Of a stretch of DNA of 64,000 bases, positions 1-58,276 are shown piece by piece. The translations under genes were made by a program, and so were the position numbers. This DNA comes from Riptortus pedestris. Taxonomy: Eukaryota; Arthropoda; Insecta; Hemiptera; Alydidae. The notes under the pieces were generated by a model. That model was not told the origin of the DNA. It saw only the letters and a program-made list of their open reading frames with translations, and did not search any database. The stretch lies in contig CM032233.1 in the NCBI GenBank assembly GCA_019009955.1, positions 113,319,501 to 113,383,500 on the forward strand, read 5' to 3'. Every line of letters begins with the position of its first letter. The stretch's first letter is position 1.

Positions 1-1730
1 GAGGCTCTGTAAATGGTCCATGGTGCTATACTTTGGCCGAAAACCTGCTTGTTCTTCATTGTGATCTGCATAGATGGATTTTATTATCCTCAGTCTCAGT
101 ATATTACAGAATAGTTTATATAGACACTGTGTGAGGGAGATAGGGCGATAGTTTCCAATGTTCTTTCTGCTGCCCTTTTTAAATAAAATAATCAATTTAC
201 TTTCTTTCCAGTCTTGAGGAATTTGACCTTTTTCCAATATTTTATTAAATAGAAGGGTCAGGGGTTCAATCAGTACATCTTTCCCCATCAGGATTAGCTC
301 ATTAGGAATGCCATCCGATCCTGCAGCTTTTTTCCATTTCAGTTTCCTTATGGCTTTTCCAACTTCTTCTTTCATAATGCTGAGGTCTTCCATTTTCCTA
401 TTACTTTTGCTTTCTCCCTCTATTTCTCTGTCAGGTTCTGCCACTGTGTTGTTTTCAGCCTCTTTGTCACAGTAAAGTTTTTCATAATATTGTGTCACTG
501 CTTCTACAATTTCTTCTCTCTTGGTAACTTCTCTTCCAGATGAAGACTTAATGTTGCTTATATATGATTTATTTATATTACCTATTTTTCTAAAAATCTC
601 TTTAGTTGAACTATTTGTATCCAAGTATTCATTTATAACCTTCTCCTCGTATATCTTAATATCATGTTTGATCTTTTTCCGGGCCAGTTTTCTGAGTTCC
701 ACATGTTGGATTTTCTGCTGGGGGGTTTTGTTTATGATTCTATTTAACTGTTCTCTATGTTCAATAATTTCCTTGGTCTCATCTGACAGTTTGCAACTTC
801 TTTTGGGTAAATTTATTTCTTTTTTGGAAACTTGTTGTAGCTCCTTGGCTGTTTTGAGGTTTTCCAGAATTTTTGAGTATATCCTTTCAACCTCATTTCC
901 TCCCTTTAAGTCAATTTTGGCAAAGAAATTCCTGAGATTTTTTTCGAACTTTGGCGATATACCTTTAGATCTACTAGCGCGATTTCGAATAAAAAAAACG
1001 TCTTCGGGATAATCATGTAGCCGGCAACCAGTCTGTGGTCAGAATCAAAATTAAAATTCCTGACAGGGCCAACACCCTTCACTGACTTTTTATTGGGGTT
1101 AAGAATATAGTCTATTTCGTGAGTTTCATAATTAGGGCTCCTCCAAGTCCACTTTTTTTCCCAAGACAGTTTATGGAAGCTATTAAGCAACTTCAATTGA
1201 TTCCTAAGGGCCAACTCCACTAATAGCTCTCCTCGTGAATTTCTAGGTCCTTTCCCATATTTTCCAACGGCTTCGCCATCTTCCACTTTTCTCCTACCGA
1301 CCTTCACATTGAAATCACCTAACACAGTGCAGAATCTTCTGTTTTTATTTCCTGCTAGAACGGTTTCCAGTTCCTCATAAAAATCAGTTATCTCATCCTC
1401 CGTGCTTGCAGAGGTTGGGGCATGAACCTGAATGAAAGTGTGAAGGATTCCCCTGAGTTTGATACTTAACTTGGCTATTCTAGGAGATATGCTTTGAAAC
1501 TCTGCCATATTCTTTCTTAATCTTTTATTAACAATGAATCCTGTTCCATAGTTTCCATTGACAGCGGCGCTATGAGCTAACAAGTTACCTCTTGATGTCT
1601 CCCCAATAAATTCAAAATTGCACCTTATTTCTGCTCGACCTATTATATCCCATTCTATCTTGTCAAGGGCCTCTTCTAATTTCGCCTGATTCCGTAGTGT
1701 TCTTGCATTTAGAGTACCAATTCTTGCCAA
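1..1730 (-). pseudogene. LINE ORF2: endonuclease plus N-terminal reverse transcriptase, frameshifted
   Basis: The first ~245 codons from 1730 form an EEP endonuclease: an opening N-A-R-T-L, the catalytic GDFN (VLGDFNVKVG), an HEIDYIL block and the terminal SDHRLV. At the T8 run near 986-993 the frame changes. Downstream, another minus-strand frame continues with a basic linker. It then shows reverse transcriptase motifs: KAAGSDGIPNE, DWKESKLIILFKKG, NYRPISL and EQAGF. The YxDD box and thumb lie beyond the left edge. The protein would nick DNA and prime reverse transcription of its own RNA. The single-base shift in a homopolymer could be real decay or a sequencing error. Confidence 0.85.
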
Positions 1731-1748
1731 TTTTCCTTTCTTTATTTG

Positions 1749-3630: not shown

Positions 3631-4699
3631 GTATTACTTAATGAAATAGTTACTATTATGTTCTCTATAAATAATTTCGCATATTTTGTTTATTTAACTT
3701 GTATAAAAGATGTAACAGTTCACATGCTTTGTCTTTTTAAATTCTCTAGAAATGCTGCTAAGTTTTTTTGTTTGTTTTTTTATGATTGATAACTAAAGTA
3801 TTTGCTATACTTAGAGCCAACTCAAAGGCAGCAACTCACTTAAAGATTAAAAAGTTTGTCTCGCAGGGGCTGTGTAAACTAAGCAGATATCCCACATGCT
3901 GACTCATATGATAACTCATGTGATCTCATCTCACCACATATTCTCTATTTCTATGGGGGAAAAAAACAATGAGTAGAAGAGGGGAGGAGGGTTACTGAGG
4001 CTGAAAATAATTTGCTTATTACCTGAGTTACGAAAAAATGCATAGAATAACAATTGTAGAGTTTCAATAGTTAAACAAGATTGATCTTATTACATTTTAC
4101 GATCCGACTAATAATAACGGAGATATTTTGAATTTTCAAATTCCTCTCTCTCTCTAAATCCCTCTATTCCTGGTCCGATTTCTGTCAATCACAAATATGG
4201 TCTCTAGTGTTGAATAAAACGGTCAAATATCGAGTATGGTATGGATCAAATGAACATTTTCGAAACTATAACATGAAACCTTAAGTAATAATTCGTCATG
4301 GCACTACAAATTTGCATGTATCTCGCATCATAAAGGTCCCATGGAAATAATAGTCGGTATTCAAGCTTAGAATAAAGTGGTTCATGTTATAACAGCATAT
4401 TGTTTTAGGACATAGTGGGAATTTACGGAAAGTTAAAAACTAAAAATTCCAAATATCTCGGTTAGTATTAATCTTAGAGAAAATATGTATATAATAACAT
4501 TTATAGACAATTGAATTTACCATATGATTAGTTTTATACACTTTTTTGAGCCGTCGTATAATAACAGAGATATTTTGAATTTTTCCCTCTTCCCCGATCC
4601 GATTTTATGGTTTGAAACATTTAATATCGAGTTTGTTTTAATGATAAAACAATAATTGTGATCGCAAGAGTGGTAACAGACTAGAAAAAAAATATATAT

Positions 4700-4778: not shown

Positions 4779-4822
<44 letters not shown>
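4700..4822. repeat. CA and TA microsatellites
   Basis: (CA)n at about 4708-4733 and (TA)n at about 4783-4822 are the simple-repeat core of the surrounding Helentron-like element. Apparent short ORFs of Tyr-Ile repeats here are artefacts of the TA tract. Confidence 0.9.
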
Positions 4823-4826
<4 letters not shown>

Positions 4827-5260
4827 CCAAATCGAGAATGATCTGTGAATAAAACAGCTGCCCATTGCTCCTCTGTCATCTGGAAATGTTGTTCAGCAAA
4901 TATCCGACTTACCCTTCGATACCTTTCCAGGAGTTGGTGCCCTGTCGTGGGGTTTCTCAATTGAAGACCTTGCTCCCTCAGCCTCCGCCATATGGTGTCT
5001 GAGCTGAAGACAGTATTTCCGATGATTTGGAGCCTGACCTGAACCTCAGGAGTGGTTAAATGCCTGTTTCTCAAAACTGAGAGGGCAATAAATCGATCTT
5101 CTGATGATTTGTGGCCCTTGAACGGCCACTACCGGCCCTCTGCTCATAGCACCCAGTCTCTTCCAAACGCCAGAGTGCGTCATGGATAGTAGATCTTGCC
5201 ACTCTGAGGGGCCGAAAGAACCTTTTTCCTAGACTAGAAGGAAAAAACAACATTCAATAA
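4823..5260 (-). pseudogene. Tc1-like transposase fragment
   Basis: On the minus strand the order is an HTH-like region (VARSTIHDALWRLEETGCY), a frameshift near 5075-5090, then RNRHLTTPEVQVRLQ, a second HTH-like block (IWRRLREQGL) and the start of the catalytic domain (AAVLFTDHSRFGC). The LFTDxSRF box contains the first catalytic Asp of a DDE transposase; the Glu usual in 'DESRF' is His here. The sequence stops abruptly at the TA tract just after this box, so about half of the transposase is missing. It adjoins a TA microsatellite on the left and, about 250 bp further on, another on the right, as expected for TA-targeting transposons. It cannot be active. Confidence 0.85.
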
Positions 5261-6011: not shown

Positions 6012-6905
6012 GGAGACTGACGCTGCTACAGAAGAAGTGTGCATGCGTCAAACGCCAGCAACTAACAGCTGTTATCGTGAAGCTTCCTCTTTCGAATATA
6101 GTGCCTCTTGCTTCTGTAAACAAATCAGTACAGCCGTAGCCTTCGTTCGCATTAGAGTTGTTTTTTTGTTTCGCCGGAAAAATGTTAAGTGTAACAGTAG
6201 AGCAACGAATTGTTGTGAAATTTCATGTGAAACTTGGAAAAACCGCTACTGAAACTTATAATTTATTGAAATAAGTGTATGGCAATGAATGTTTATCGCA
6301 TGCACGTGTTTTTGAGTGGTTTAAGCGAGCCAAAAAAGCTCGAATGAGCAAATCAAAATTCAAAGCAATGTTGATTGTTTTTTTCGATATTCATGGGATT
6401 GTGAACCTTCACTGGGTTCCTGAAGGTCAAACGATTAATCAACATTACTACCTTCACATTCTTGCTGAACTCTGCGAAAGAATAAGGAAAAAACGACCTG
6501 AATTGTGGAAGGACAAGTCATGGGTTCTCCACCAAGACAATGTGCCGGCTCATTCCGCATTGTCTGTTAAGAGGTTTCTAGCCAAATTCAGCATCCCAGT
6601 GTTAGACCATCCGCCTTATTTGCCGGATCTTGCGCCGTGCGACTTCTATCTGTTTCCTAAGGTGAAACTGCATTAAAAGGAACAAGATTTGAGTCTGTTG
6701 AAGCTGTGAAAGAGAAAGTGGCACGCGTCCTGAAGGAGCTGACAGAAAAAGACTTCCAGCACTGTTTCGAACAATGGAAGGTTCGCATGGAGCGTTGTAG
6801 GGATAAAGGAGGGGTGTATATTGAAGGTGATAATAAGTAAAAATGTATGAAATAAAAATAAAATGTTTTACAACGTCAGTCTCGTTATTTAATAGCCACA
6901 CCCCG
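6012..6905 (+). mobile_element. Mariner element with internal deletion
   Basis: The right end carries a mariner-type terminal repeat (cagtctcgttatttaatagccac, cut at the TA of ccgta). The left end keeps only the inner part of the repeat, ggagactgacg. Length is about 0.9 kb against the usual 1.3 kb because the middle of the transposase is gone. It lies in the SNARE intron, about 320 bp beyond the Helentron-like element. Confidence 0.8.
6182..6840 (+). pseudogene. Mariner (DD34D) transposase, deleted and frameshifted
   Basis: Reading starts MLSVTVEQRIVVKFHVKLGK, meets an in-frame TAA after about 30 codons, then resumes with HARVFEWFKR. It jumps directly to ARMSKSKFKAM, so roughly 100-120 residues, including the first catalytic Asp, are missing. 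The remaining catalytic part is clear: WVLHQDN (second Asp), then 34 residues, then LAPCDFYLFPK (third Asp), which is the mariner DD34D spacing. A one-base shift at about 6673 breaks the tail, which continues in another frame to EGDNK and a stop at 6840. The related HsMar/SETMAR-like family cuts and pastes at TA sites; this copy cannot. Confidence 0.9.
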
Positions 6906-9677: not shown

Positions 9678-10559
9678 GGTATTCTCAATTTCCTTCCAGA
9701 GAGAGATTTGAGATTGATTCAATAATGAGCATTGGTGAAGATCCTGACGAGTACTGAAAATTAACTTTAGCATAGTGTGAATCCTCCCAACACTTAAGTA
9801 AAACTATGACTGTTCATATGTATGAGAACATGTCATTTAATAAACTTTAATTTTAATATTTTAAATATAGTTTGTATTATATTATTTCTATAAGGGTGTC
9901 AAATGATAAAAAGGAATTTACTCAAGAAGCGTGCATTCTGTCAAGACCAGCAGGGAAAATTCATATAGGGTAATCAGATCAAGGCTAGGTGAACCCAGTA
10001 CTTCAAGAATATTCTATATCCAAAGACGGTGTAGCAGCTCTGTCCAGATTAACAAATTTAGTAGTAATGCAAATAAAGGAATCTAGGGAGGCATTGCAGT
10101 CACTATTAATACCAAGCATGCTTATCAGATTGATGAGGGTGACTGGAAGAGATATTTTCCTAGGTCAAATCAACATCAACAATATATAATTATATTCCAG
10201 CATTGGTTGGTGGTCAGATCAGTACTAAATATATTGTTTGAAATAAGAGACAGAATATGAGAACCTCTTGACAGACAGGTGGTGTTGTTGATTTGTGGGG
10301 TATCACATTTCCTGGTTATAGCATGTCCAAGTAGCCGCAGGAGATAATAACCTTAACAAGTATAAAGATCAGAATGGTGGCATGGACCAGGTGCTTATAT
10401 GTCTTACTGGAAGATCTTCAATTTAAAAGTCCATCCAGCAAGGCAAAGGGGAATTATGAACTAGTAGCTTTTAACACATTTAATTTCTAGTTTCTCAGCA
10501 GCTTCAAGCCATTGACTGTGAGAAATTAGTCAAAGACCTGAATGCTCTGTTTGTCAAAA

Positions 10560-11301
10560 GACCGCCATGGAGAGGCTGCGTAAACTAAGCAGATTTCATC
10601 TCATCACATATTGTCTATTTTCATGTAAAAATTTGACAATAAAAAGGTTGTGGTGGGGGCGGGATATTGACAGCTGAAAACAAGAATGTACAAATAACTT
10701 GCTTAATACTTGAGATACAAAAACATTTACTGGAAAATAATTGATGATGCCATAACACTACGTATTTTTATGTATCTCTTGCTGTAAACATGAAAACAAT
10801 ATTTGGTATTTAAACTTGCAATAAAGTGGTTCATAATATAACAGCTTTTTGCTAATGACATTAGACGGAGTGGGAGTTTGCTGAAGGCTGAAAGCTAAAA
10901 AAATCAAATAACTCCGTTAATATTAAAGATAGAGAATAAATGAATATATCAAAATTTATAGTACATTTTATTTGCAATAAGATTGGTTCCGTACAGTTTT
11001 CCGGTCTGATGCATAAAAACGGAGGTATTTAGAATTTTTAAAATTCCCCCTCTAACCCCCCCTCCCACTGGTCGGATTTTAACCATTAACAAACCTTATC
11101 TTTAGTTTTACATAAAATGTTTAAATATCGAGTTTGGTAACGATCAAACAAAAATGATAACTGCTAGAATGAAATTATATATATACAAACAGTTTTAAAA
11201 TGGCCTCATTTTCGTCATTTCCTGGGTAGGATCGATGAAGTTTTCAGGAAATTTTACAAAAATTGCTTCATGAGTAAGACCTCAATAGCTGATTTCCAGT
11301 A
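10560..11301 (-). mobile_element. Helentron-like element (HINE), decayed
   Basis: It starts with the hairpin-end block (gaggctgcgtaaactaagcagat) and carries the family body (taaatatcgagtttggtaacg, gatcaaac). A very short TA tract (11176-11184) follows. The element then has cctcattttcgtcatttcctgggtaggatcgatg and ctcaatagctgatttcc, and breaks off before the usual palindrome and ctgctaaaa. Confidence 0.75.
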
Positions 11302-12109: not shown

Positions 12110-13268
12110 ATTGTAAATAAGCTGAAAACCTTTTGAAAATTCAAAATATCTCTGTTATTATACGTCGGATAGAAAAGTTCTATAAAACCAATCTTATTGA
12201 AAATGGAATTTCCTATGAATGCTATCATATTCATTTTTTCTCTATCTCAAATATTAACTGAAATATTTGCGTTTTTTAAATGTTGGCCATAACTAAACCC
12301 TCACTCCAGCTCATGTCATATTAACAATAAATTGTGATATGAACAACTTTATTCCAAGCTTGATACCAACTATTAATGTGCAAATACGTTCGCGGGCCGC
12401 TTTTAAAAGTAGTGCATTTTAAAGTAGTGTTCATAATTTTTACATTACACGACAATGTAACTATAATACAATTTATTAAAATAACAAAATGAAATGAAAA
12501 AAAAAATAGGTACAACATTATAATTAAATCGTAAAATTTGGAATTATTACAAACAACGAAAGTTAAATAGCGACACCGAAATCAATGAGGCCGAGCTTGA
12601 ATTTTGGAAACTAATCTATCGTTGTTTGGATATTCCTGAATTTTCCAAATTATCGTCTGTCAGCCTTGTGCGAAGTTTTGATTTATGAACTTTCATCATT
12701 GAAAAGAACTGTTCGCATTTATAACTACTGCCAAACGCATAAGTCTCTCCTCATTTGGAGTAAGTAGTGTAATATTTTTGTTTAATTGGGTTTTTCAAAA
12801 TGTCTCGCGGGCCGGATCAAACCTTAACGCGGCCCGGTGGTCGCCCACATATGATCTATACCATATTAGCAACAACACACTGTTTCACCCATCATACCAT
12901 ACTGTTTCACGCAGCAATTAAGTCTATTGTTGTTAATATCTGAAATCGGACTAGGATTAAGAAAGGTTTAATTAGAAAATTAAAAATATCTCTGTTATTA
13001 TGACTCGTAACGAAAACTGTTATAGAACCAATCTTGTTAAACTATTGATGGTCTACAACTGTTGTTCTATACATTTTTTCTTAACTCAAATATTAAGCGA
13101 ATTATTCGTACTTTTTTGTTTTCAGTTATCATTTACCCCCCCCCCTTCTGCTTATCGGTTTTTTACATAGAGATATAGAATATGTGTTGCGATGAGATCA
13201 GTAGCGTGTCATACTAGCACATGAAAATCTGCTTAGTGTACGCAGCTCCTGCGGGACGGACTGCATTT
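12110..13268 (+). mobile_element. Helentron-like element (HINE), + orientation, carrying a hAT remnant
   Basis: The body phrases occur as reverse complements (aaaatatctctgttattat, ctcaaatattaa), twice, either side of the hAT piece. The hairpin end at 13228-13268 reads aaaatctgcttag...cgcagctcctgcgggacgga. The two body blocks may be two nested copies rather than one. It ends about 500 bp before the RNF11 start codon. Confidence 0.65.
12388..12848 (-). mobile_element. hAT transposon 3' remnant
   Basis: It is bounded by GC-rich cgcgggccg phrases, and the right end cggtggtcgcccac is typical of hAT terminal repeats. On the minus strand 12731-12616 encodes CEQFFSMMKVHKSKLRTRL, the conserved C-terminal dimerisation motif of hAT transposases (the family's 'CE.LFS.MK...K...R..L' block), followed by a premature stop. 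Only the last ~40 codons are readable. Confidence 0.75.
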
Positions 13269-13764
13269 TTTTAGTCCTTTTTAAAATATAGAGAGACCCC
13301 CCCCCTTCCTCGCATTCTTTGGTCACTTAGCTATTTCGATAGCTTAGTTTTGTTTTGCTTCAATCACAAGAGCACTTTTGTTTTTTAACTTCAGAGAAAA
13401 TTTATTTTTTTGCACCGTGTTATTGTCATGTAAACATGTGATTTATTTTTGAAGACGTCAACACTGTCACGGCACTGTCAGAATTCGAAAATAACCAACT
13501 CACCAGCTGACTGAAACAATGACGATCGTTTTTTCAAATTGTAAACTTTGCGTAAATTCGGATCTTTAGAAGTTCATACGTCGCAATTAATAAGACAGCA
13601 GTACTGGATATGAGAGCTCGTTTAAGCATTAGGTTGTAAGTTTTGTTTAATTTACTCTACTATAGGTTTTTGTTAGACGGGGCTATTGTGATGGTAATCC
13701 TCTTTGTTGTTGTCAAAGTAACTTATTGGAATGTTTTAGAAGATTTTCCTGAAACCCTACAGAG
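13269..13764. other. RNF11 5' flank
   Basis: This is the only space for a 5' UTR and promoter if no upstream non-coding exon exists. No TATA box, CpG-rich patch or other promoter element could be supported. The stretch is less AT-rich than its surroundings from about 13430 to 13600. Confidence 0.35.
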
Positions 13765-13875
13765 ATGGGGAATTGCCTTAAAGGCTCCTCAGCAGATGAC
13801 ATCTCATTACTTCGGGGAAGCGAGAGTGCAAATGACACAAGTTCAGACAATTTAGGGCTCCCTCCACCTTACAGG
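13765..13875 (+). CDS. RNF11: RNF11 E3 ubiquitin ligase adaptor, exon 1
   Basis: The exon encodes MGNCLKGSSADDISLLRGS... and ends ...LGLPPPYR (37 codons, phase 0), before a GG/gtaaga donor. MGNC gives an N-myristoylation Gly2 with a palmitoylatable Cys4. PPPY (residues 33-36) is the WW-domain ligand by which RNF11 binds NEDD4-family ligases such as ITCH. The three exons give 143 aa against 154 in human RNF11, with the same order: acyl anchor, PPxY, QLTEEEQ helix, RING-H2. The protein sits on endosomal membranes and modulates ubiquitination in NF-kB, TGF-beta and trafficking pathways. No internal stops; the gene looks intact. An upstream in-frame Met is not plausible because MGNC is invariant. 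Confidence 0.95.
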
Positions 13876-14365
13876 GTAAGATTTGGCATTTCCTAAAAAT
13901 TCATTATCATGCTTTGTTTTTCTATTATTATATTTAAATTCTATATTTTGGCCATTGTATTTTTGAAGCTAATCAGATATTCACTTATAAACTGCTTGAA
14001 TTTAAGTTAGGCCATAGTGTGTTCTTTCTTTGTGACAAGTAGTTACCCAAGTATTATGGTATAACTTTTATTAATTGGTGTTTGGGATAGCATACATAAG
14101 ATTCAGTGGCAATTCTATTTTTACTATCCTCTTAGAATGTGTAATAGTGTTATTGCTTATTAAAGACTGTGGTTTTCCTTATTTGAAAGTTAATCCTTTA
14201 ACATATAATTATGTTAAACTATTCTTGATTCAATCATACATGCACATGATTCGAATAACTTTAGTCTGTTATTACACAAACAGACATAATCTTTGTTATT
14301 CTGTGGCTCAGTTCCAATATCCTTTGTTTACAACAAACAAAATCAGTGTGCACAATAATGTGAAA

Positions 14366-15870
14366 AGTATTATTCAAGAACAAACAGCTTAATTTATCAT
14401 ATCAATAATCCAAATAGTATTATTAAAGAATAAACAACTTAATTTATCATACCGATAATCCAAATAGAATTATTCAAGAATAAACACTTTAATTTATCAT
14501 ACCGATAATCCAAATAGAATTATTCAAGAATAAACACTTTAATTTATCATACCGATAATCCAAATAGAATTATTCAAGAATAAACACTTTAATTTATCAT
14601 ACCGATAATCCAAATAGAATTATTCAAAAATAAACAATTTAATTTATCATATCGATAATCCAAATAGTATTATTCAAGAATAAACACTTTAATTTATCAT
14701 ACCGATAATCCAAATAGAATTATTCAAGAATAAACACTTTAATTTATCATACCGATAATCCAAATAGAATTATTCAAGAATAAACAACTTAATTTATCGT
14801 ATCGATAATCCAATTAGTATTATTCAAAAATAAACAACTTAATTTATCATATATTCAAGAATAAACAACTTAATTTATTGTATCGATAATCAAAATAGTA
14901 TTATTCAAGAATAAACGACTTAATTTATCATACTGATACTCCAAATAGCATTATTCAAGGATAAACAACTTAATTTATCATACCGATAATCCAAATAGAA
15001 TTATTCAAGAATAAACAACTTAATTTATCGTATCGATAATCCAATTAGTATTATTCAAAAATAAACAACTTAATTTATCGTATTGATAATCAAAATAGTA
15101 TTATTCAAGAATAAACGACTTAATTTATCATACCGATAATCCAAATAGAATTATTCAAAAATAAACAATTTAATTTATCATATCGATAATCCAAATAGTA
15201 TTATTCAAGAATAAACAACTTAATTTATCATACCGATAATCAAAATAGTATTATTCAAGAATAAACGACTTTATTTATCGTATCGATAATCAAAATAGTA
15301 AATATTATTCAAAAATAAATGACTTAATTTATCATACTGATACTCCAAATAGTATTATTCAAGAATAAACAACTTAATTTATCATACCGATAATCAAAAT
15401 TGTATTATTCAAGAATAAACAACTTAATTTATCATACCGATAATCAAAATAGTATTATTCAAGAATAAACAACTTTATTTATCGTATCGATAATCAAAAT
15501 AGTAAATATTATTCAAAAATAAATGACTTAATTTATCATACTGATACTCCAAATAGTATTATTCAAGAATAAACAACTTAATTTATCATACCGATAATCA
15601 AAATTGTATTATTCAAGAATAAACAACTTAATTTATCATACCGATAATCAAAATAGTATTATTCAAGAATAAACAACTTTATTTATCATACCGATAATCA
15701 AAATTGTATTATTCAAGAATAAACAACTTTATTTATCGTATCGATAATCAAAATAGTAAATATTATTCAAAAATAAATGACTTAATTTATCATACTGATA
15801 CTCCAAATAGTATTATTCAAGAATAAACAACTTAACTTATTTTATCGATAATCCAAATAGTATTATTCAG
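14366..15870 (+). repeat. 50-bp minisatellite array A (RNF11 intron 1)
   Basis: About 30 copies of a 50-bp unit (caaatagtattattcaagaa, taaacaacttaatttatc, ataccgataatc) with a few substitutions. Variants recur in a set order: a longer unit containing agtaaatattattc appears near 15297, 15502 and 15755, giving a higher-order repeat of about 205-255 bp. That indicates local unequal exchange or replication slippage in blocks of 4-5 units. The array is the reverse complement of array B. Confidence 0.95.
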
Positions 15871-17023
15871 AATACCCTTTGTAAAAAAGACAGTTGTTGT
15901 CCTCAAGATGCGGGTTTTCAACAATTTACTCAACTTTCCATTTATCCTGCATAGCAAAAAACGCCCATCAAATAGGGGCTGAATAAACTAAGCAGATTTA
16001 CTAGGTGCAACAATGAGAAGAGATAGAAATGGCACCCTGAAGCCGAGCTATTATTTCAGTCCGAGCACGCCATCAACATACCTTCCGCTGGCCAGGTGAC
16101 CTCTCAAAGCTCTTATACTATGCAAAGGATCAGAGGATATATGAAGTTTTGGGAAAATTGCAAAAAGAGGAAAACTTTAATAGATTGTAGATTGTTTCCC
16201 GAGAGCAATCTGCTACAAGGGGATATTTATTAGGAATGGGGGAAAATATTATAAGTTACAGATTTAAAAATGGATGAAAATCACTATATCGTGCCCCAAA
16301 ATATTAATTAAGAAAAGGAAAGAATTTGACCTTCATTAGGAGAAATATGGTATGGCCACATGTTTTTATAAATCGGCAAGGTCAAATTCATGGTCCATTG
16401 GCTAGCTTCCAAAATAGATATTTAATCTTTTTATTCAGTTCCTCTTTATAGACTTCAGTATTGAAAGAAAAAGAGAAGAAAGACGGGATAACATTTATGT
16501 TAGAGGCAATAAGATCAGCAAATATAATTTGGCTTGAAGCCAATAATAAAACAGAGGAGTTACTGACAAATTATATTCCAGAAGATAAAAATACAAATTT
16601 GGGATATAAAATCAAAACAAGAAAAATGGGCTCACTAGTGTATAATGTGGTGTGAACTACATTGAAATCTTCAATGTCATATTGATGCTAACTACTGATG
16701 AAATAATTAGCTTTTAATTCATAATTACTACTGGTGAACTCATTAAATAAAAGCTTTAGTCACTTAAAAAAGGGCAACAACCTGTATATAACTTGTCCAG
16801 ATTGGCCATAGTAGCACAAAGTAGTCTTTAATAAATTATATCAAAAGCGGATGATTAAAATTTTAAATTGGCGATAACATAAATTAAATTTGATTATAAT
16901 TTGTATGAAATTAAATTTGAAAATTGATATAATGAACTTTATCACATAATAGAATTACAAAATATTTAGAAAAAGCCCCAATGAAATAAATATCCATATT
17001 TTGGTATGCTAAACTAAGTTATA
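15871..17023. other. Spacer between the two minisatellite arrays
   Basis: Unique sequence of about 1.15 kb. Near 15974 it holds ggggctgaataaactaagcagattt, a decayed Helentron-like hairpin end. A 64-codon frame (16461-16655) has no recognisable domain. No inverted ends were found that would make the whole 14.4-18.4 kb block a simple transposon. Confidence 0.5.
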
Positions 17024-18432
17024 TATTCTTGAATAATACTATTTGGATTATCGACACGATAAATTAAATTGTTTATTCTTCAATAATACTATTTGGATTA
17101 TCGATACGATAAATTAAATTGTTTATTCTTGAATAATACTATTGGGATTATCGATATGATAAATTAAGTTGTTTATTCTTGAATAATACTATTCGGATTA
17201 TCAATATGATAAATTAAGTGGTTTATTCTTCAATAATAATATTTGGATTATTGGTATGATAAATTAAGTTGTTTATTCTGGAGTAATATTATTTGGATTA
17301 TCGATACTATAAACTAAGTTTTTTATTCTTGAATAATACTATTTGAATTATCGATACGATAAATTAAATTGTTTATTCTTGAATAATACTATTTGGATTA
17401 TCGATATGATAAATTAAGTGGTTTATTCTTCAATAATACTATTTGGATTATCGATACGATAAATTAAATTGTTTATTCTTGAATAATACTATTGGGATTA
17501 TCGATATGATAAATTAAGTTGTTTATTCTTGAATAATACTATTCGGATTATCAATATGATAAATTAAGTGGTTTATTCTTCAATAATAATATTTGGATTA
17601 TTGGTATGATAACTTAAGTTGTTTATTCTGGAATAATATTATTTGGATTATCGATACGATAAATTAAGTTGTTTATTCTTGAATAATACTATTCGGATTA
17701 TCAATATGATAAATTAAGTGGTTTATTCTTCAATAATAATATTTGGATTATTGGTATGATAACTTAAGTTGTTTATTCTGGAATAATATTATTGGGATTA
17801 TCGATATGATAAATTAAGTTGTTTATTCTTGAATAATACTATTCGGATTATCAATATGATAAATTAAGTGGTTTATTCTTCAATAATAATATTTGGATTA
17901 TTGGTATGATAACTTAAGTTGTTTATTCTGGAATAATATTATTTGGATTATCGATACGATAAACTAAGTTGTTTATTCTTGAATAATACTATTTGAATTA
18001 TCGATACGATAAATTAAATTGTTTATTCTTGAATAATACTATGTGGATTATCGATATGATAAATTAAGTTGTTTATTCTTGAATAATACTATTTGGATTA
18101 TCGTTACGAGAAATTATATTGTTTATTCTTCAATAATAATATTTGGATTATTGGTATGATAACTTAAGTTGTTTATTCTGGAATAATATTATTTGGATTA
18201 TCGATACGATAAACTAAGTTGTTTATTCTTGAATAATACTATTTGGATTATGAGTATGACGAATTAAGTTGTTTATTTTTAAATAATATTATTTGGACTA
18301 TTGGTATGATAAATGAAGTTGTTTATTCTTGAATAATACTATTTGGATTATTGATGCGATAAATTAAGTTATTTATTCTTGAATAATACTATTTGGATTT
18401 TCAATACGATAAACTAAGTTGTTTATTCTTGA
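17024..18432 (-). repeat. 50-bp minisatellite array B, inverted copy of array A
   Basis: About 28 units (gtttattcttgaataatact, atttggattatcgatatgat, aaattaagtt), each the reverse complement of an array A unit. Multi-unit blocks are duplicated; the series cggattatcaatatg, then taataatatttggattattgg, occurs at about 17191, 17551, 17691 and 17851. Arrays A and B together form an imperfect inverted repeat of about 1.4 kb per arm. Confidence 0.95.
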
Positions 18433-18865
18433 TTTGAGCTCCAAAAATTTTAAATTTTGATGTCTCTAAAATTAAAAAATCAAGAAATATATCAGTAGAT
18501 GCTGGGACTAGACATAAAGATAGTATTTACGAAGTTGGAACACCTTCAATTTTTTTTTTTTTTTTAGAAGAAATGCAATAAAAAGTTCTAAAATAAATCA
18601 TTCGGCTTCTCTTCATAAATTAGGGTTTTTCGAGATGTGACAGTCCTCTTCCCAACCAGCGATATGTATATATTCATATCACATGTTAGTCTACTACTGG
18701 GGCATTAGTCTTACTAGCCTCAACAAGACATATTTTTGTTTTCCATGCCAGTTTAATATTATTTACAGGATCCTAGTTATTGGTTTACATTTTTTTTTAA
18801 ATATTTGTTTAGTAATGTATTTATTATGATTATGATTGTCTACTAATATTAATCTGGTTCACTAG

Positions 18866-19014
18866 GAAGCTGTTCCTGTTTATTATCCTTCTCCTAATAT
18901 CAGCAGGCCTGTGAACCAGCTAACAGAAGAAGAGCAAATCAAAATAGCTAAACGTTTGGGATTGATACAACATCTGCCTACTGGAAATTACGATGGTTGC
19001 AAGAAAAATCGAGA
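18866..19014 (+). CDS. RNF11: RNF11 exon 2 (linker and QLTEEEQ region)
   Basis: The acceptor is ctag and the donor gaga/gtaagt; 49 codons plus 2 nt. The product begins EAVPVYYPSPNISRPV and continues NQLTEEEQIKIAKRLGLIQ, then HLPTGNYDGCKKNR. This matches RNF11 from just after the PPxY motif to just before the RING. The split codon GA|G gives Glu87, joining to exon 3. Intron 1 (4990 bp) holds the inverted minisatellite arrays. Confidence 0.95.
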
Positions 19015-22473: not shown

Positions 22474-22913
22474 CCCTTTCCTTGCACAAAGCCACTATAG
22501 TGGCTTGAGCCAGACCATCCCCCAGTGCGCAAAGCCACTATAGTGGCTTAGGGATGGCATGCCCCTCGCGCGCAGAGCCACTATAGTGGCTTTGGTCGTT
22601 CCCCATCTAATTTTGGTAAACCACTGTTGTGGCTCGGAAGGGAATCATCTGTTGGCAAATAGGGGAACTAGTAACTACCTGTAGCCTCACTAGATCGCAT
22701 CAACAGTACGTTTTGCTGCATTTGTGTGGATCTGTGGGCTTTAAGGGTGGCGGACCCTACCCTCGTCAAATTAGTTGACAGCTTTAATATAAATAGGCGA
22801 GGGGGGCAACCGGGAGGAGGGCCGGGAATCCCGCGCACAGAGGGGTAGCTGAACTTGGAACGGCCAGCGCCCCTCGTCACTCACCCTCCACTACCTGTGC
22901 CGCAATTAAAGGG
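22474..22913. mobile_element. piggyBac-type MITE with internal palindrome array
   Basis: The 440-bp element is flanked by TTAA on both sides (22470-22473, 22914-22917) and has CCCTTT...AAAGGG ends, the hallmark of piggyBac-superfamily insertions. It is much more GC-rich than the intron around it. No transposase is encoded. Near the left end lie four palindromes at about 43-bp spacing. Confidence 0.85.
22489..22634. repeat. Array of 18-bp palindromes at ~43-bp spacing
   Basis: AAGCCACTATAGTGGCTT, a perfect palindrome, occurs at 22489-22506 and 22532-22549. A 16-bp core version lies at 22576-22591, and a degenerate version (aaccactgttgtggct) at about 22619. The linkers differ. This looks like a subterminal binding-site array of the MITE. 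Confidence 0.9.
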
Positions 22914-33124: not shown

Positions 33125-33270
33125 TTTCTTCCCAAAAATTCATTTTTGTTTTTTATTTATTTACATCCACTTTATGCTACTATGGCTTATTGGAACAGGT
33201 TATCTTACAAGTTACCACCCTTTTCTAGCCATGGTGGAACTAAGGAATTTATTTAATGAGTCCGTCACTA

Positions 33271-33921
33271 GAAGACGTTAATATCACCTGCAATGGCGTA
33301 CCACTTGAGATGGTTGACACCTATAAGTATCTTGGCACACTCATATGCAGGGATGGTAGGATAGATCAGGAGGCCTTAAATAGGGTGAGTCAGGCCAATG
33401 GAATTTTCTACCAAATACGTAACACCCTAATTGCCAAGGAAGAATTGAGTAGATCAACCAAACTCAGAATCTACAAAGCGGTCTTTCTACCAGTGATGTT
33501 GTATGGTGCAGAGAGTTGGACCTTATTGGACAACCATGCAAGCAAACTCAAGGCAGCAGAAATGAGATACCTAAGGTGCATTGCGGGAAAAACAAGGCGA
33601 GGCCGCATCAGAAATGAGCGGATAAGAGAGGACCTTGGGGTGAGACCGATTGGAGAGATAGTTGAGGAGCGCCAACTTAAGTGGTTTGGTCATGTCAACC
33701 GAATGGGGGACACAAGAAAGGCCAAATGGTTATATGAAGCACGGCCAGAAGGCAAACGACCCCGTGGTAGACCTAGACTTACGTACCAGGACTACGTAGC
33801 TCGATTAGGAGCAGAAAGGGGCAAGACCGCGCCAGAGATGAGGAGACTCGCGGCGGACAGACCCAGCTGGGCAAAGTGGACTGAGGTGGCCCCTCCACGC
33901 TTATCGGCACGATGGAGGTAG
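33271..33921 (+). pseudogene. LINE ORF2 C-terminus (RT thumb and tail)
   Basis: An open frame of about 217 codons to TAG begins EDVNITCNGVPLEMVDTYKY. It contains YLGTLICRDG, KAVFLPVMLYGAESWTL, MRYLRCIAGKTRRGRIRNE, QLKWFGHVNRM and GKRPRGRPRLTYQDYV. This series is the standard end of RTE/Proto2-like and related LINE reverse transcriptases, downstream of the catalytic YxDD box, which is absent. No stops or shifts are visible. The clade cannot be fixed without the RT core. It is not a host gene: it has no start, lies between target duplications, and sits in a SINE. Confidence 0.85.
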
Positions 33922-37115: not shown

Positions 37116-38403
37116 TAGGGTTGGCAAATAAGTCCTTTCGGTTTTTTAAGTTGAAAGAAAACTATTGTATATTTTGAACATAATTTTTATTTTAATCTAC
37201 AATGTAATGTCCATTATTTTCTATTACTTTACCCCATCTCTCCATCAGCTGAATAATCCCATGCTCATAGAATGTCTGTGGTTTATTAGCGAAAAAATGA
37301 TCAAGGTGCTCCCTGACACCCTGTTCGTTTTCAAACCGTTTTCCACCTAAGGAATTTTGTAGAGACCGGAATAAGTGGTAGTCACTAGGAGCAAGGTCCG
37401 GTGAATAGGGAGGGTGGGGCAAAAGATCCCATCCAAGGGCTAACAATTTGTTGCGGGTGACTAACGAAGTGTGGGGCCTGGCATTATCATGATGGAAGAC
37501 GACACCCTTTTGATTTGCCAGTTCTGGGCATTTTCGTCGAATTGATTCATTCAATTTTGTTAATTGTGAGCAGTATAGAGTGGAATCGATTGATTTACCT
37601 TGTGGCAGCAGGTCATAAAAAATCACACCCTTGAAATCCCACCATACAGAAAGCATTATCTTCTTTGGGTGCAATCCCGCTTTAGATGTGGTTCCAGGTG
37701 GTTCGTTGCTAGGTCTCCAAGATTTTTTTCGCGCCACATTATCGTAGACAATCCACTTTTCATCCCCTGTCACAAGTCTTTTAAGAAATGGATCGTTTTC
37801 TGGACGTTTTCGCAGGGAATCGCAAATGGAAATGCGTTTTGCCAAGTTGGCTTCGGTCAGAGAGTGGGGGACCCAAACATCCAGCCTAGAAACGTAGCCG
37901 AGCTTCCGTAAATGATTTTCTACGCTTGTATGTGATATGTCTAGGGCCTCAGCAATGTCTCACACTGATTGGGAAGGATTTTGATCGACTATAGCCATAA
38001 CATCAATGCTTTCAATTTCTTGTGGATGACCAGGTCGTGGTGCGTCGTTTATGTCAAAATTCCCTGCCCTAAACTTGGCAAACCAATTTTGGCACGTGCG
38101 CTCTGTTAAGGCTTTATCCCCATAGACCCCGCATATTTTTTTATGAGCCTCTGCAGCTCCCTTTCCTTTTTTGAAATAATACAGCAAAATATGCCTATAA
38201 TGCAATAAATTACCGTCCATCTTCTCAGCTGGATCACAAACGCAATACTGACCTAATCTTAACAAGTGTCGACAGACATAACTGTTTACATATTACAAAT
38301 AGGATAAACAATCCTCTGTTGGGATTAATTGCATCAGATAAATGTGACATATTGTAAACAAAACATGAATACAAAAACCGAAAGGACTTATTTGCCAACC
38401 CTA
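37116..38403 (-). mobile_element. Nearly intact mariner element
   Basis: Terminal inverted repeats ggcaaataagtcctttcggt at 37121-37140 and its reverse complement at about 38379-38398 bracket the element, which begins (TA)TAGGGTTGGC and ends GCCAACCCTA(TA). Length (~1.29 kb) is normal for a mariner. TA lies at both edges, consistent with a TA target duplication. Confidence 0.95.
37192..38220 (-). pseudogene. Mariner transposase, 342 codons with a single in-frame stop
   Basis: It starts MDGNLLHYRHILLYYFKKGK at 38220 and ends GHYIVD before TAG at 37192. The N-terminal paired HTH region runs to about residue 110. Catalytic residues are present: first Asp in VTGDEKWIVYDN, second in VVFHHDNARPH, third in YSPDLAPSDYHLF, with 34 residues between the last two (DD34D). 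The linker motif WVPHSL is present. The only lesion is a TGA at about 37960 (in the SQSV-stop-DIAEAL context), where an Arg CGA is likely, as from one C-to-T change. Both flanking parts are in the same frame. A full-length family member would be about 345 aa. Confidence 0.95.
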
Positions 38404-42324: not shown

Positions 42325-42452
42325 ATTCAAATCCTAGTTATTAGTTACCTGTTACTCATATCATCCAAAGACTAGCCATCCATGTTAGAGCAGTTAAAAT
42401 TTGATTAATGCATAATTTACTCTACCAGAAAATGATAGGAAGGATAAAGGCC

Positions 42453-42905
42453 ATCATGCAGGGGCTGCGTTAACTAAGCAGATTTTCCACTTGCTGGCAT
42501 GACATAAATTTTCTATATCTAAGAAGAAAAATTGATGAGACAAGGTGGGTGTTTAATGAGGGCTGAAAACAAGAAAATCCGAATAACTCGCTTAATATTT
42601 AAGCTAAAACAAAATGAATAAAGGGACAATTGTGGAGCATCAATGGTTTAACAAGATTAATTATATACCATAAAATGTTTTGATACAACCTATAATGATG
42701 GAGGTATTTTGAATTTTCGATTTCCCCTCCCTCAACACCCCTCCCCCTTATCCTAGTCCAGTTTCAGCCAATCACTAGTGTAATCTTTAGTGTTGAATAA
42801 AACAGTTAAATATCGAGTATAGATCAAATAAACACCACTGTTTTCATTGGACCTTTACGTGAGATGAATGAATATATTCGCGGTGGGACGTAATCGAAAA
42901 AATTT
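42453..42905 (-). mobile_element. Helentron-like element, 3' end and body
   Basis: The hairpin-end block catgcaggggctgcgttaac followed by taagcagattttccac (from 42453) leads into the family body with caacacccctcccc and gttaaatatcgagtat. A second decayed hairpin-end block occurs at about 43028-43060 (gtccgatctgcataaattaag). Confidence 0.7.
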
Positions 42906-43089
42906 CTATGAGTAAGAGGCCTTTAATAAACTCGATATTTTACCTTTTCTTGTAAAACTAATTATGCTCGTTAATTACCGGATCCGGACGAGGGGTAGAG
43001 GGGGTTTAAGGAAAGAATAAAATACAAAAGTCCGATCTGCATAAATTAAGCAGATTCCCCACTTGTTGGAATGACACTCATCTCGGAGA

Positions 43090-45560: not shown

Positions 45561-45712
45561 TGGAGAACTTCATGTTATAGGATCTCTTTGTAGTAAACAT
45601 TTATATCCTCTTTGGCGAGGTTATGTAATCAGCCATTAATAAAGAGTTAGTTATGATCTGTTCATCATTGAGTTAACATCTATTTGGTTAGGCTAGTGTT
45701 AAACCTTAAAAC

Positions 45713-46198
45713 ATGGCGCAGTCCGAGGTTATACGGCAAGGAATGGTTAAGCTGCCACCAAATTTATGCCTTGCAGAAGAGGAAGTTGCGGCAGAGTGGA
45801 AATTCTGGAAGCAAGCCTTCAATGACTTCCTAATTACAACTGGACAGGATGAATTTCCAGATAAGTTAAAATTATCATTATTAAGGAACATGATGGGCCC
45901 AGGAGCAGCTCGTATTGTGGCTACTTTTCCGTTGACTGATAGCGGTAGTTATAATAAAGTTATTGACACCATTGATAAGTATGCTAATCCTCGTTCAAAT
46001 GTAGCATTTGACAGATTTATGTTCAATGCGCGCTTACAAAAAGAAAATGAACCCTTTGACCAATTTCTTACCGATTGCAGACGACTTTTAAAATCATGCA
46101 ACTTTAGTGATACAACTAACGAACCCTTAGGGGATCAATTATTAAGGGATAAGATAGTGCACGGGGTTAATGATAAAGGCCTCAAAAGGCATTACTAA
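45713..46198 (+). pseudogene. gypsy gag (capsid)
   Basis: An open frame of 161 codons opens MAQSEVIRQGMVKLPPNLCL. The order is WKFWKQAFNDFL, then LRNMMGPGAARIV, then FDRFMFNARLQKENEPFDQF, then RDKIVHGVND. This matches the Gag capsid of K02A2.6-like gypsy elements, which assembles the particle and packages the RNA. The frame closes soon after KGLKRHY, earlier than in intact elements, and the remainder continues in another frame through 46288. The related but older element in RNF11 intron 2 belongs to the same group. Confidence 0.85.
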
Positions 46199-46782
46199 GG
46201 CAAAACAGTCTTACCTCAATTAATACGATTAAATTTTGTCCGGCAATTGAGCAGAGCAGGCTTCAAGTAGAGAAGCTTAATTCCACCTTGCACAATGTTT
46301 CAGTTGTACGGCCTAAAGCTAATAACTTCAAAAGTGTTACACGCAGTGAAAATCTGGAACAGTCTGTTTTCCAATGTACCAGGTGTCAGGGTAAACATGG
46401 ACCTCGCCAATGCCCTGCATTTGAGAAAATCTGTAGGAACTGTGGACAGAAAAATCATTTCGCTTCTGGGTGTCGTTCAAAGAAAAGAAAATCTATAGAA
46501 CATGAATCTGAGGAATCAGGTAATATGGATAGTGATTCAAATTTAAATTGTTGGACTGTACAGAAAAATCTCAATGATAAATCTAATTTTTGGTATGTAA
46601 AAATGATGATAGAGGATGTCGTATTAAAGTACAAGCTAGACACAGGAGCTGATATTAGTGTAATGCCATTAAAAGTGTTTAAAAGAATTAATAAATCCAC
46701 CGGTATTGAACCCAATGTACACATGTTAAGTTGGAAGGTTTCAATGGGTCTATATCGATACATATTGGAAAGGTTACTTTAA
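46199..46782 (+). pseudogene. gypsy nucleocapsid zinc knuckles and aspartic protease
   Basis: The frame from 46288 holds two CCHC-type knuckles: CTRCQGKHGPRQC, and CRNCGQKNHFASGC. They precede a basic stretch (RSKKRK). The retropepsin active site YKLDTGADISVMPL lies at about 46633. The frame ends at 46782 within the protease, after a shift, and decayed protease sequence runs to about 46865. The knuckles bind the element's RNA and the protease processes its polyprotein. Confidence 0.85.
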
Positions 46783-46979
46783 AATGTGAATATAAAGGGA
46801 AGGTTCCATTTGAAGATTTCATGATCATTAATGGAAATAGTATGTTATTAGGGCTGCCTGGTTGTTAGCTTTAAATTTAGTTCACAGGGTAAAACCAGTC
46901 TCAAAAACAAGTTCATCTGAAACTGAAAAGTTCGTAGAGTGTAATAAAGATGTAAGATAAGAGGAAAGAAATATTTTTC

Positions 46980-47316
46980 AGTCTTTGGCCTTTCAGAAGA
47001 TTTCCATCAGCTGCCTCTCACGGAGGAGTCTTCGTGGAAGTTCTGTTTTGCTACACGTTTGGTGTCTTCAGGTACCTAGTGCTACCTTTCGGGGTGTCAA
47101 ATGCACCTGAAGAGTTTCAGGAGGCTGTCGAAAAGTATTTTGGTAATATCGAAAATGTTCAAATTTGGATTGATGATATTCTGGTCTTCGGAGAATCGAA
47201 GGAAGCTCATGATATTGCGGTGGAAAAGGTAATGAAAAGAGCTCGGAGTAGTCTTTAACGCCTTTAACAAAGACAAAGTACAATATCGTCGAAGAGAAGT
47301 TCGTTATGTCGGTCAC
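46980..47316 (+). pseudogene. gypsy reverse transcriptase, palm part
   Basis: FGLSEDFHQLPL, then VFRYLVLPFGVSNAPEEFQ, then IWIDDILVFG. The last is the catalytic YxDD box, here WIDD. The N-terminal fingers (the usual LNK.L.RP...) are deleted between the protease and 46980. The frame shifts at about 47255 and picks up again as YRRREVRYVGHLF. Confidence 0.85.
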
Positions 47317-48044
47317 TTGTTCAGCGAAAATGGAATGAAGATAGACCCGAAACGTGCAGAAGCCCTTCTCAAATTAGAATCACCAAAAAGCAGAGAAGAA
47401 CTGCAGCGAATCATAGGTTCCTTCAACTACATTAGAAAGTATGTCCCAAAGATGGCTGATCTGATGGCACCGTTAACGAAACTATTAAATAAAAATACTG
47501 AATGGATTTGGTCACCCCTTCAGGAAAAAGCTTTCCTAAACTTGAAACATTTTATTAGTAATGCACCAGTTTTAGCATCCTTTGACCCAAAGAAGAAAGT
47601 TGTTTTGCAGTCTGATGCTAGATGTAATATGAAGTTGGTGGCATGGGCTTCTAGACAGATGAATCCATCAGAATTGAATTATAGCCAGTCTGAAAAAGAG
47701 ATGCTTGCAATATTCTTTGGCTGCAGCAAGTTCCACCGGTATATATATGGTTGCCTGTTATTGATGTCCATTGTGATCACAAGCCTCTGTCAGCGATTAT
47801 GTTGAAACATATGAGTAAAATTGGTCATACAAGACTTCAACGGTTCTGGCTCAAACTCCTTCGTTATCATTTAAACGTTATTTATGTTCCCGGTAAAAAC
47901 CTTCATTTTCCTGATATGCTTTCCAGAAATTTTCTAAAAGAAGCTGAAGAAGACGCTGATATGCTTGAAATGGTGCAGAATGTCAGCAAACATTTACCAC
48001 TCACTTTAATAAATTTCCGTTTACTCAACTTTGTCCTAGGCTAA
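47317..48044 (+). pseudogene. gypsy RT thumb, connection and RNase H
   Basis: The 47317-47805 frame has ENGMKIDPKRAEALL, IIGSFNYIRKYVPKMADLM and VLASFDPKKKVVLQSDA (start of RNase H). A small deletion follows, then AWASRQMNPSELNYSQSEKE and FHRYIYG. A shift near 47750 moves to VHCDHKPLSAIM, RLQRFWLKLLRY and VIYVPGKNLHFPDMLSR. The RNase H would remove RNA from the RNA-DNA hybrid. The frame then runs into the foreign insertion at about 48002. Confidence 0.85.
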
Positions 48045-48520
48045 CGCTTGGAGCGAAAAGCTCACGTTTAGCACACGCCTAGCTGAAGAGATCCGAAAGG
48101 TCGCCCAAACGTATCATCACTGAAAATGGGATTTCGAAACTTAACTTTACACGGTTATACACCGACGGTTTATCGCTTTCGAACTTACGTTATTTCACTT
48201 TGTACAATTTTTTACTTTTCAAATCACCTTTGATGTGATGTCCAAAAATAAATAAATAATAATACTGCCTTACAATCCAATCGTTCCAACGCTTCTTCGC
48301 GTTGCTGATGAGTTACCGTAAGTACGAAAACGAGAAACCAAAGTCCCACCAACCGAAACAAGTCAATCGGTGTATAACCGTGTAAAGTTAAGTTTCGAAA
48401 TCCCATTTTCAGTGATGATATGTTTGGGCAACTTCGTTTCGACCTTTCGGGTCTCTTCAGCAGTAAACGGAAATTTATTAAAGTGATTTTCCAAACACTC
48501 TTCGGATACGGCTGTGAAGC
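48002..48520 (-). mobile_element. Snap-back element with hammerhead-like core (Penelope/retrozyme-like), inside gypsy
   Basis: Left arm 48002-48172 and right arm 48352-48490 are imperfect inverted copies. They share actttaataaatttccgttt, cccaaac.tatcatcactga and aaatgggatttcgaaactta. The ~180-bp loop is non-coding with a TTA/TTTA-rich tract. It separates the gypsy RNase H from the integrase. Penelope-like elements often leave inverted terminal copies and carry hammerhead ribozymes; that link is inferred, since no Penelope reverse transcriptase is present. Confidence 0.55.
48430..48475 (-). ncRNA. Candidate hammerhead ribozyme core
   Basis: Minus strand, 5' to 3': CTGAAGA, stem II GACC-CGAAA-GGTC, GAAAC, then GAAGTTG. 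This fits the hammerhead consensus CUGANGA, stem-loop II, GAAA, with a very short stem III (AAC/GTT around GAA) and a GUU cleavage triplet. Stem I has GTTT/AAAC pairing beyond a 4x4 internal loop. The left-arm copy (48081-48101, + strand) lacks an 11-nt piece containing GAAAC and should be dead. Confidence 0.5.
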
Positions 48521-48615
48521 CAAGTTCGTTCGACAAACGTTCTTTTGATAAATGTCAGTTTGACAAAACGTCTTTTGACAAACGTCGTTTGAACAGAATA
48601 TCTTTTACCATTCAG
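48521..48615. repeat. ~15-bp tandem motif (gacaaacgt type)
   Basis: gttcgacaaacgttc, ttttgataaatgtcag, tttgacaaaacgtc, ttttgacaaacgtcg, tttgaacagaatatc: five degenerate copies of one ~15-bp unit between the snap-back element and the gypsy integrase. Confidence 0.7.
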
Positions 48616-49573
48616 CTTGGATCAAAAGAAAAGACTGCGACTTGCCACTGCTACTGACAACCCGCTATGTGAAGTTCTGGGATATTGTAGAGATGGCTGG
48701 TCTAGGGAGTCCAATTTGAAGACAGAACCTATTCCATTTTTTAAAATTCGGGAGTTTATTTTGAAGCCGGGATACTGTTTTATGAAACAAAATTGTAGTT
48801 CCAGAGACTCTTAAACCGATATCACTCTCTCTTCACAAGGGACATTTGCGAATATCAAAAAACAATAGAGAAAGCACGAGAACTATATTTTTGGCCGACG
48901 ATGAGTAAGGACCTTCAGACTACAGTCAGGATGTGCACGACTTGTGATAAATTCAGCAGGAATAACGTATTTGAACCTCTCTTGCAGCACAAGGTACCAG
49001 AGCTGAGATATGAAAAGGTTGGATGTGAAATCCTGGATTTCGGGGCCAAGAGTTGCTTTGTTGTAATTGACTACTTCTCCCACTGGATAGAGCTACGACC
49101 CATTCCCAACAAATCATCAGCAAGTATAATTGATCAGTGGCAAGAGGTTTTTACTCGTTTCGGATATCCCGATCACCCCGCACAATTCAAAAAGCAATGG
49201 AATGTCAGAGAAAGCTGTTTGGATTTGCAAGAACATCCTAAAGAAAAGTTTAGAGGATAGAAATGATTCTAGGGAGTATTTATTTGAATACAATAACTCA
49301 CCGCTTCCTGGTCTACACTGTTCCCCCTCTCAGATCCTGAACAGTCGTGTTCTAAGATCAGAGTTGCCAGTGTCCAGTAAAATTCTTGAGTTCATACTTC
49401 AACCCAACATAAGGGCTCTTCTTGAAATTGATCAAGGCATCACTAAGGATTATCATGACAGGCATCGCCTTAGAAAAGAACAACATTCAAAGAAGGAGAT
49501 GAAATTGTGTTTAGAACAAGGGACGACCAGCATTGGCAAAAGGGAAGAGTTGAAAGGAAGGGAGAAGAGCTAA
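48616..49573 (+). pseudogene. gypsy integrase
   Basis: N-terminal part: ATDNPLCEVLGYCRDGW, then the zinc-binding HHCC region (SLHKGHLRISK at about 48830, CTTC at about 48932). Catalytic core: FVVIDYFSHWIELRPI with the first Asp, then FTRFGYPD. A deletion then removes the second Asp block. The sequence resumes as SNGMSEKAVWICKNILKKSL with the final Glu context, then NNSPLPGLHCSPSQIL. The C-terminal end continues in shifted frames to about 49750. Integrase would join element DNA to the chromosome; with part of the active site deleted this copy cannot. Confidence 0.85.
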
Positions 49574-50342: not shown

Positions 50343-51444
50343 AAAATTGTAACCTCTGTCTGTACATTGATTTTTTTCGCGAAATTTCACGATAACTTTT
50401 CGTTTCACATGTCACAGACACCATATCTGCATTTTGTTTCTTTCGTGTATGTTTGTTTGTTTGTTTGTTTGTTACCTTTTCACGCATAAACGGCTGAACC
50501 GAATTTTATGAAACTTGGTATGAATATTACTACTAACCCAACTTAGACTTTAGGCTATATTAATTTTCTCTGAGACGAACAGGAGTGGGGGTTATAAGGA
50601 TAGCCTGAAATTAAAAATAGCGATATTTCGTTTTCTATTGGTTTTTCGCCAAATATGCACATAACAAAAGTTGTTTATTTTGTTTTTTAGAGTAACTTTT
50701 GTTATATACTCTTTTGTCGTATACCGAAGTTTAAATGCGTTATACGCTAAAAATTATAGCGGGAGTCAACAATATTATTTGCCAAAATAGACTCAACCGA
50801 ACTAAATAAAACTCGGTATGTGTATTAGCAGTGAGGCCTTCATTATAATAAGCCATACCAACATTTCTATGGATGGGCAGGAGTGGGGGTTATAAGGGAA
50901 GCCTGAAATTAAAAATAGCGATATTTCGTTTCCTATTGGTTTTTCCGCAAATATAAACATAACAAAAGTTGTTTATTTTGTTATTTGGAGTAACTTTTGT
51001 TATATACACTTTTGTCGTATACCTAAGTATAAATGATTTATACGTTAAAACTTTAGCGGGAGCCAACAATTTTATTGGGCACTAACGGCTGAACCGAACT
51101 TAACAAAACTCAGTATGTCAATTAGCATTAATTCTTCCATGATTATAAGTTATATTAAAATTTTTAGGTTCGAACGGGAGGGGGGTTATAAGGGAGGCCT
51201 GAAATAAAAATTCACCATATTTACATGTATAAGAGACGGGAAATACAAAAATATCGAAGGCAGTGAAGCCTTATCGAACAAATAATTCTATTATTAGCAA
51301 ATCCACGGCAACGACGGGTATCAATCCTAAACACTGGGACGGGTAAATGTCAAAATATTGTGCAATGTAAAGCCTGCTAAAAAATACCATCACCATTCAG
51401 CCTCAAATGAATTCTCGGGCGAAGCCGGGTATCTGAGCTAGTAC
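50328..51444 (+). mobile_element. Non-autonomous Helitron with internal ~295-bp tandem modules
   Basis: The 5' end is TC followed by tatatatatataaaattg. The 3' end is cgggcgaagccggg, a hairpin, then tatctgagCTAG followed by T, which is the canonical Helitron CTRR terminus. The interior holds three successive diverged modules (about 50490-50785, 50786-51075, 51076-51220). Each has an aaccgaa, a-aaactcggtatg, agtgggggttataagg and gcctgaaat phrase. There is no Rep/helicase gene. Confidence 0.8.
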
Positions 51445-58105: not shown

Positions 58106-58276
58106 TTGGCAGGTTTAAATAATTTTTCAGTCGTATGGAAATACTAATTCCGTCCACTAAATTGGCACTTGGTCCCCGTTCCTATTTATATTTGAGCCTT
58201 CGTTTATCACTCTTCCATCCATTTGTAAAACTAACAAGTGTTCTAAAGTTTCCTTGTGTATCATAAAATAACAAAA

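Follow-up and report, generated by a model that had tools for sequence, protein, structure and literature searches.

Riptortus pedestris carries, in the first intron of RNF11, two tandem arrays of one 50-bp unit that lie in opposite orientations on either side of a spacer (Table 1). The evidence gathered from the window, that is, the whole stretch of 64,000 nucleotides that was analysed, and from a search of the genome favours, with a probability of about 0.6, a minisatellite private to this intron that was split by one local rearrangement, whose two arms then grew separately, and whose hairpin would be without selected function. We infer the rearrangement, the transcription of the arms, their editing and the lack of function from these data.

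The host gene encodes a common factor in protein recycling. Its three coding exons, all on the + strand, join to a 143-aa RNF11 with GT-AG introns, and the protein is 93% identical to that of Cimex lectularius and 87% identical to that of Triatoma dimidiata. Intron 1 extends over 13876-18865 (4,990 bp), which bears out the placement of the arrays in this intron by an earlier note on the same DNA; arrays and spacer together occupy 81.5% of it, and the two arrays by themselves 58.9%. A 43-bp tandem repeat of 2.6 copies is also present in intron 2 (22483-22592), where the unit contains the palindrome GCCACTATAGTGGC.

Table 1. Features of the RNF11 locus in positions of the window
Feature	Positions	Strand	Description	Evidence
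RNF11 exon 1, coding part	13765-13875	+	GTAAGA donor next; in-frame join	tblastn with human RNF11
Array A	14366-15874	+	~30 units of 50 bp	TRF, cyclic alignment, genome pattern search
Spacer	15875-17004	.	1,130 bp; two short stretches resembling dispersed window repeats (~15920-16030, 16695-16898)	
Array B	17005-18432	-	~28.6 units, reverse complement	TRF, cyclic alignment, genome pattern search
RNF11 exon 2	18866-19014	+	in-frame join	tblastn with human RNF11
RNF11 exon 3, coding part including stop codon	23167-23338	+	in-frame join	tblastn with human RNF11

Tandem Repeats Finder (TRF) reports 50-bp arrays at 14369-14851 together with 14852-15874 and at 17005-18432, and a unit-by-unit alignment traces A over 14366-15874 and, read as the reverse complement, B from 18432 down to ~17005; the coordinates and the lengths of ~1.5 kb for A and ~1.4 kb for B given in the earlier note were thus correct, and the spacer, put there at 1.15 kb, measures 1,130 bp. 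That the arrays are reverse complementary and opposed is confirmed by the unit alignment and by an inverted-repeat search, in which the A-B pairs among the 25 longest of 191 pairs are 86-90% complementary, and the sharing of one 50-bp unit by the two oppositely oriented arrays supports the proposed descent of both arrays from one ancestral unit. Dyad symmetry of the unit, considered as a cause of the inverted match, was rejected, as the unit agrees with its own reverse complement at 24 of 50 positions, against a mean of 25.5 for shuffles.

The internal make-up of the arms is distinct. Array A shows a 204-bp block pattern, and three of its units, those beginning at 15250, 15454 and 15708, carry a TAAA insertion; array B has its own block pattern, in which particular unit types return at distances of 3, 5 and 7 units, and its innermost unit is degenerate. 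When units A13 and B29 are retained in the count, the variants confined to A comprise the TAAA insertion and an A at column 42 (11 of 30 units), and those confined to B lie at columns 6, 7, 23, 24, 43 and 48. The arrays contain 22 occurrences of the palindrome TATCGATA, which we take to be the DRE motif of Drosophila, 9 of them in A and the other 13 in B, against 3 in the remaining window; this enrichment is probably a by-product of the 50-bp unit.

The edges of the arrays are abrupt. The cyclic aligner also placed poor rows, three before A (from 14270) and two inside B (to 16903), and no trace of the unit beyond the array edges or in the spacer rose above the shuffled control, in which 14 of 60 shuffles scored as high for the left flank, 9 of 60 for the spacer, 16 of 60 for the inner-B part and 45 of 60 for the right flank. 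Matches of 70% to the unit in these places, considered as degenerate units, were rejected as lying at shuffle level. No target-site duplication (TSD) was found at any boundary tried (14352-14377, 18424-18445), the longest abutting identical words being 4 bp (ATTC, AAAA), and no kinship was found among the four array flanks or end domains: all six flank pairs are at shuffle level under a control that shuffles in blocks of two bases, and for the outer flanks of A and B, 24 of 40 shuffles reach an equal score. In unit phase, the outer ends of A and B differ by 8 bp.

Two parts of the spacer recall a dispersed repeat family of the window. The first (~15920-16030) gives a pairwise BLAST match to that family, an assignment that is weak because the family profile, at E 0.01, did not list the stretch; the second (16695-16898) was found by the profile, yet is itself a member of it. 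Elsewhere in the window, a dispersed and diverged repeat of ~600 bp with AT-rich microsatellite parts lies at 3799-4402, 10513-11300, 12865-13296 (- strand), 42415-42992, 58221-59036, 59045-59625 and 60830-61517; a profile of these seven copies yields 32 matches in the window at E 0.01, some of them on both strands of one place, which points to internal inverted parts. Fragments of mariner/Tc-type transposases are represented by the Pfam domain Transposase_1 at 6275-6673 (+), 37195-37959 (-) and 62231-62890 (+), and by HTH_Tnp_Tc3_2 at 4784-5128 (-). Remains of an LTR-type retroelement extend in separate frames over 45710-49573 (+), with RNase H-like domains at 47236-47802, an integrase zinc-binding domain at 48799-49257 and an integrase core below the cut-off; the part at 45710-46195 has no Pfam match. 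Likely pieces of non-LTR retrotransposons are seen at 906-1745 (-), with an endonuclease domain, and at 33244-33918 (+), which by eye looks like the terminal part of a LINE reverse transcriptase and has no Pfam match, and a 298-bp unit forms two tandem copies (2.1 by TRF) at 50576-51211.

The earlier note had proposed looking for the unit elsewhere in the genome, and such a search (1,078,779,003 bases, 138 contigs) returned the RNF11 locus alone. All eight matches to a 501-bp piece of A lie there, as do all 55 matches (30 + 25) to a 30-bp pattern taken from the unit, with at most 3 mismatches allowed, and the reversed control gave 0 matches; these repeat counts are lower bounds, and the uniqueness holds at the search depth used, since more divergent copies could escape. 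Exact-match scans found the unit in 0 IMG/VR contigs and 0 GTDB genome contigs, where an insect repeat is not expected.

Comparison of the units gives an ambivalent picture of how the arms separated. On average, two units of A are 90.0% identical (435 pairs), two units of B 88.2% (378), and a unit of A and one of B 87.8% (839), as computed from 30 A and 28 B units with the poor rows A01-A03, the partial unit A34 and B29-B31 omitted. For the tree, haplotypes and order models, the deletion unit A13 was also left out; among the resulting 29 A and 28 B units, haplotypes at columns 30, 33 and 34 are common to both arms (A/B: GTC 6/10, ATC 3/5, ACC 14/6). The shared haplotypes and the near-equal identity between and within arms look as if a multi-unit array had predated the split. 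A tree built from the 57 units over 50 columns has good support for 5 of its 32 inner branches and does not part the arms cleanly; the arm label changes 6 times (bootstrap 5-8), against a mean of 17.2 for shuffled labels, with none of 500 shuffles as low; a single clade of arm A is not rejected (AU p 0.121; few columns). Given this clustering of labels and the unrejected A clade, the shared haplotypes could represent recurrent change or exchange.

Another source of evidence is the order of units along the arms, for which four models were tried, so that the shift percentages given here are uncorrected: the mirror order has r 0.023, a value reached in 31% of 812 shifts; a junction of the inner end of A with the outer end of B has r -0.216 (97.5%), an inversion that ties the outer end of A to the inner end of B r 0.216 (2.6%), and a copy in unchanged order at these latter ends r 0.100 (2.5%). 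With 30 A and 28 B units, mirror order was likewise not found (r 0.038, 24% of 840 shifts as high). The arms accordingly do not resemble a preserved palindrome, and the missing mirror order gives no sign of selection for, or maintenance of, arm pairing. When A's inner end is set against B's outer end, the two fit in unit phase and overlap by 8/9 bp, a trace that an inversion with staggered breaks could leave; by our estimate, such an overlap alone is expected by chance about once in five. The order value of -0.216 for A inner and B outer counts against a break at this pair of ends, and the models that link the outer end of A with the inner end of B perform better than this one.

The favoured account would thus begin with a 50-bp minisatellite private to RNF11 intron 1, which may have been split by an inversion with one break within the array and the other ~1.1 kb past its end, or else by an inverted duplication of part of the array. 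Each arm would then have been expanded and reshuffled separately through unequal exchange or slippage of multi-unit blocks; in the RNF11 pre-mRNA, the arms would pair into a large imperfect intron hairpin, the likeliest fate of which would be some ADAR editing and disposal with the spliced intron, with no selected function. Ordinary intronic minisatellites occupy a single locus and have multi-unit block patterns and variant units. These features are shared by the RNF11 arrays, with the difference that an ordinary intronic minisatellite forms one array, whereas this intron contains two opposed arms of near-equal size. Among the titles and abstract openings listed by a literature search, none describes opposed minisatellite arrays in an intron.

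The proposal of a necessary inversion or palindromic element therefore stands in its first part, a local inversion or inverted duplication, and is weakened in its second, since the unit occupies a single locus and neither a TSD nor a shared end domain was found; the same three observations favour a private minisatellite over a dispersed foldback element. In the foldback reading, which is unlikely, the arrays would be the repetitive terminal inverted repeats and the spacer the core of a DNA transposon like Drosophila FB, Galileo or Tetris, the TSD having been lost after insertion into the intron. The resemblance lies in the layout of opposed tandem-repeat arms around a middle segment: Tetris is described with such long inverted arms, an outer flanking domain and TSDs of 8-10 bp (PMC4079207), and Galileo with a TSD of 7 bp, F copies whose arms vary independently in repeat number, and chimeric copies in which non-matching 7-bp flanks take the place of TSDs (PMC3573991). 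Tm1 of root-knot nematodes is another element of the foldback group. Unlike these elements, the RNF11 locus has no TSD at any boundary tried, its arms reach the edge without a common outer domain, its outer ends are out of phase by 8 bp, and all 55 genome-wide matches to the unit (at most 3 mismatches in 30 bp) fall within it, so that copies elsewhere were not found. The literature search found no paper on foldback transposable elements with terminal inverted repeats in Hemiptera.

The hairpin itself is physically plausible as a large, imperfect structure in the RNF11 pre-mRNA, judging from the predicted fold of 14366-18432, which has a minimum free energy (MFE) of -1690.7 kcal/mol, against -681 to -720 for 12 dinucleotide shuffles and -664.5 kcal/mol with arm B re-oriented; eight other stretches of the window, two of which overlap by 767 bases, fold at -778 to -984 kcal/mol. 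A long imperfect duplex, as the earlier note envisaged, is thus predicted, but its figure of ~1.4 kb of double-stranded RNA (dsRNA) was overstated: 1,227 A-B pairs are formed, of the 1,509 bases in A, and they are broken by mismatches and four large interruptions into helices of which the longest uninterrupted one has 39 bp. Altogether, 17 helices reach at least 20 bp, the longest run without a loop of more than 8 nt contains 443 pairs, and, judging by coordinates, each of three 54-nt bulges spans a TAAA insertion plus roughly a full unit of A. Such a structure would be a credible ADAR substrate, with 1,209 of the 1,622 adenosines of 14366-18432 paired in the prediction, and a possible, though weaker, substrate for Dicer-2, with perfect antisense in B for 65 of the 561 distinct 21-mers of A.

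That the arms have been kept complementary for endo-siRNAs, or for control of RNF11 splicing or editing, would fit the strong predicted pairing and the antisense 21-mers, and known systems offer partial parallels. Drosophila hairpin RNA (hpRNA) loci give rise to Dicer-2-dependent small RNAs and undergo fast copy-number turnover (PMC10317233). In Coridius chinensis, another true bug, 2,783 of the 2,904 genic A-to-I sites fall within introns, and a predicted intron hairpin contains clustered sites (PMC10937787). Loci of the hp-CG4068 type share with the RNF11 intron a repeat-derived inverted sequence able to form dsRNA, but the RNF11 arms are internal to an intron, imperfect and without a known target; the edited introns of Coridius likewise represent potential intronic dsRNA in a true bug, whereas in RNF11 the paired arms are a minisatellite and the hairpin is a prediction from sequence. 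Selected complementarity is nonetheless quite improbable: the mirrored unit order is missing, homogenisation within each arm would account for the complementarity, no Rfam match appears in the window at gathering scores, and no 15-base word of the arrays recurs in the rest of the window, which thus shows no target. More specifically, it is very doubtful that the two arrays serve as a source of intronic dsRNA for siRNA or editing pathways, or draw the intron 1 ends towards each other, and so tune RNF11; were this true, inversion of a minisatellite would have made a new regulatory hairpin in a single step.

It is highly improbable that a mobile element carrying repeats, for example a HINE of the Helentron type, inserted twice independently, in opposite orientation and without making TSDs. 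HINE elements combine central satellite-like arrays with end modules and lack TSDs (PMC7492417), and the spacer does contain short stretches that resemble dispersed window repeats; two element copies, however, would have common end modules, and in contrast to HINE/Helentron elements no common left or right modules are found when A and B are compared, the flanks being mutually unrelated (six of six pairs at shuffle level), nor did the genome search, at its depth, reveal the unit at any further place. Assembly or library artefacts can take the form of inverted repeats, but a strand-switch chimera or mis-assembled repeat is scarcely credible for arms that differ by ~12% per unit and have distinct block patterns, which would not be expected from strand switching, within a contig of at least 113 Mb.

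A private minisatellite divided by a local rearrangement would make the opposed arrays of RNF11 ordinary in kind and of interest chiefly as a caution and possibly as a dsRNA locus of recent origin. They illustrate how, within a conserved gene and with no mobile element found, a minisatellite may turn into an inverted structure of 4 kb, and thus that layout alone is insufficient to call a foldback transposon. If the hairpin is active, it would represent a simple route for the birth of new dsRNA loci.
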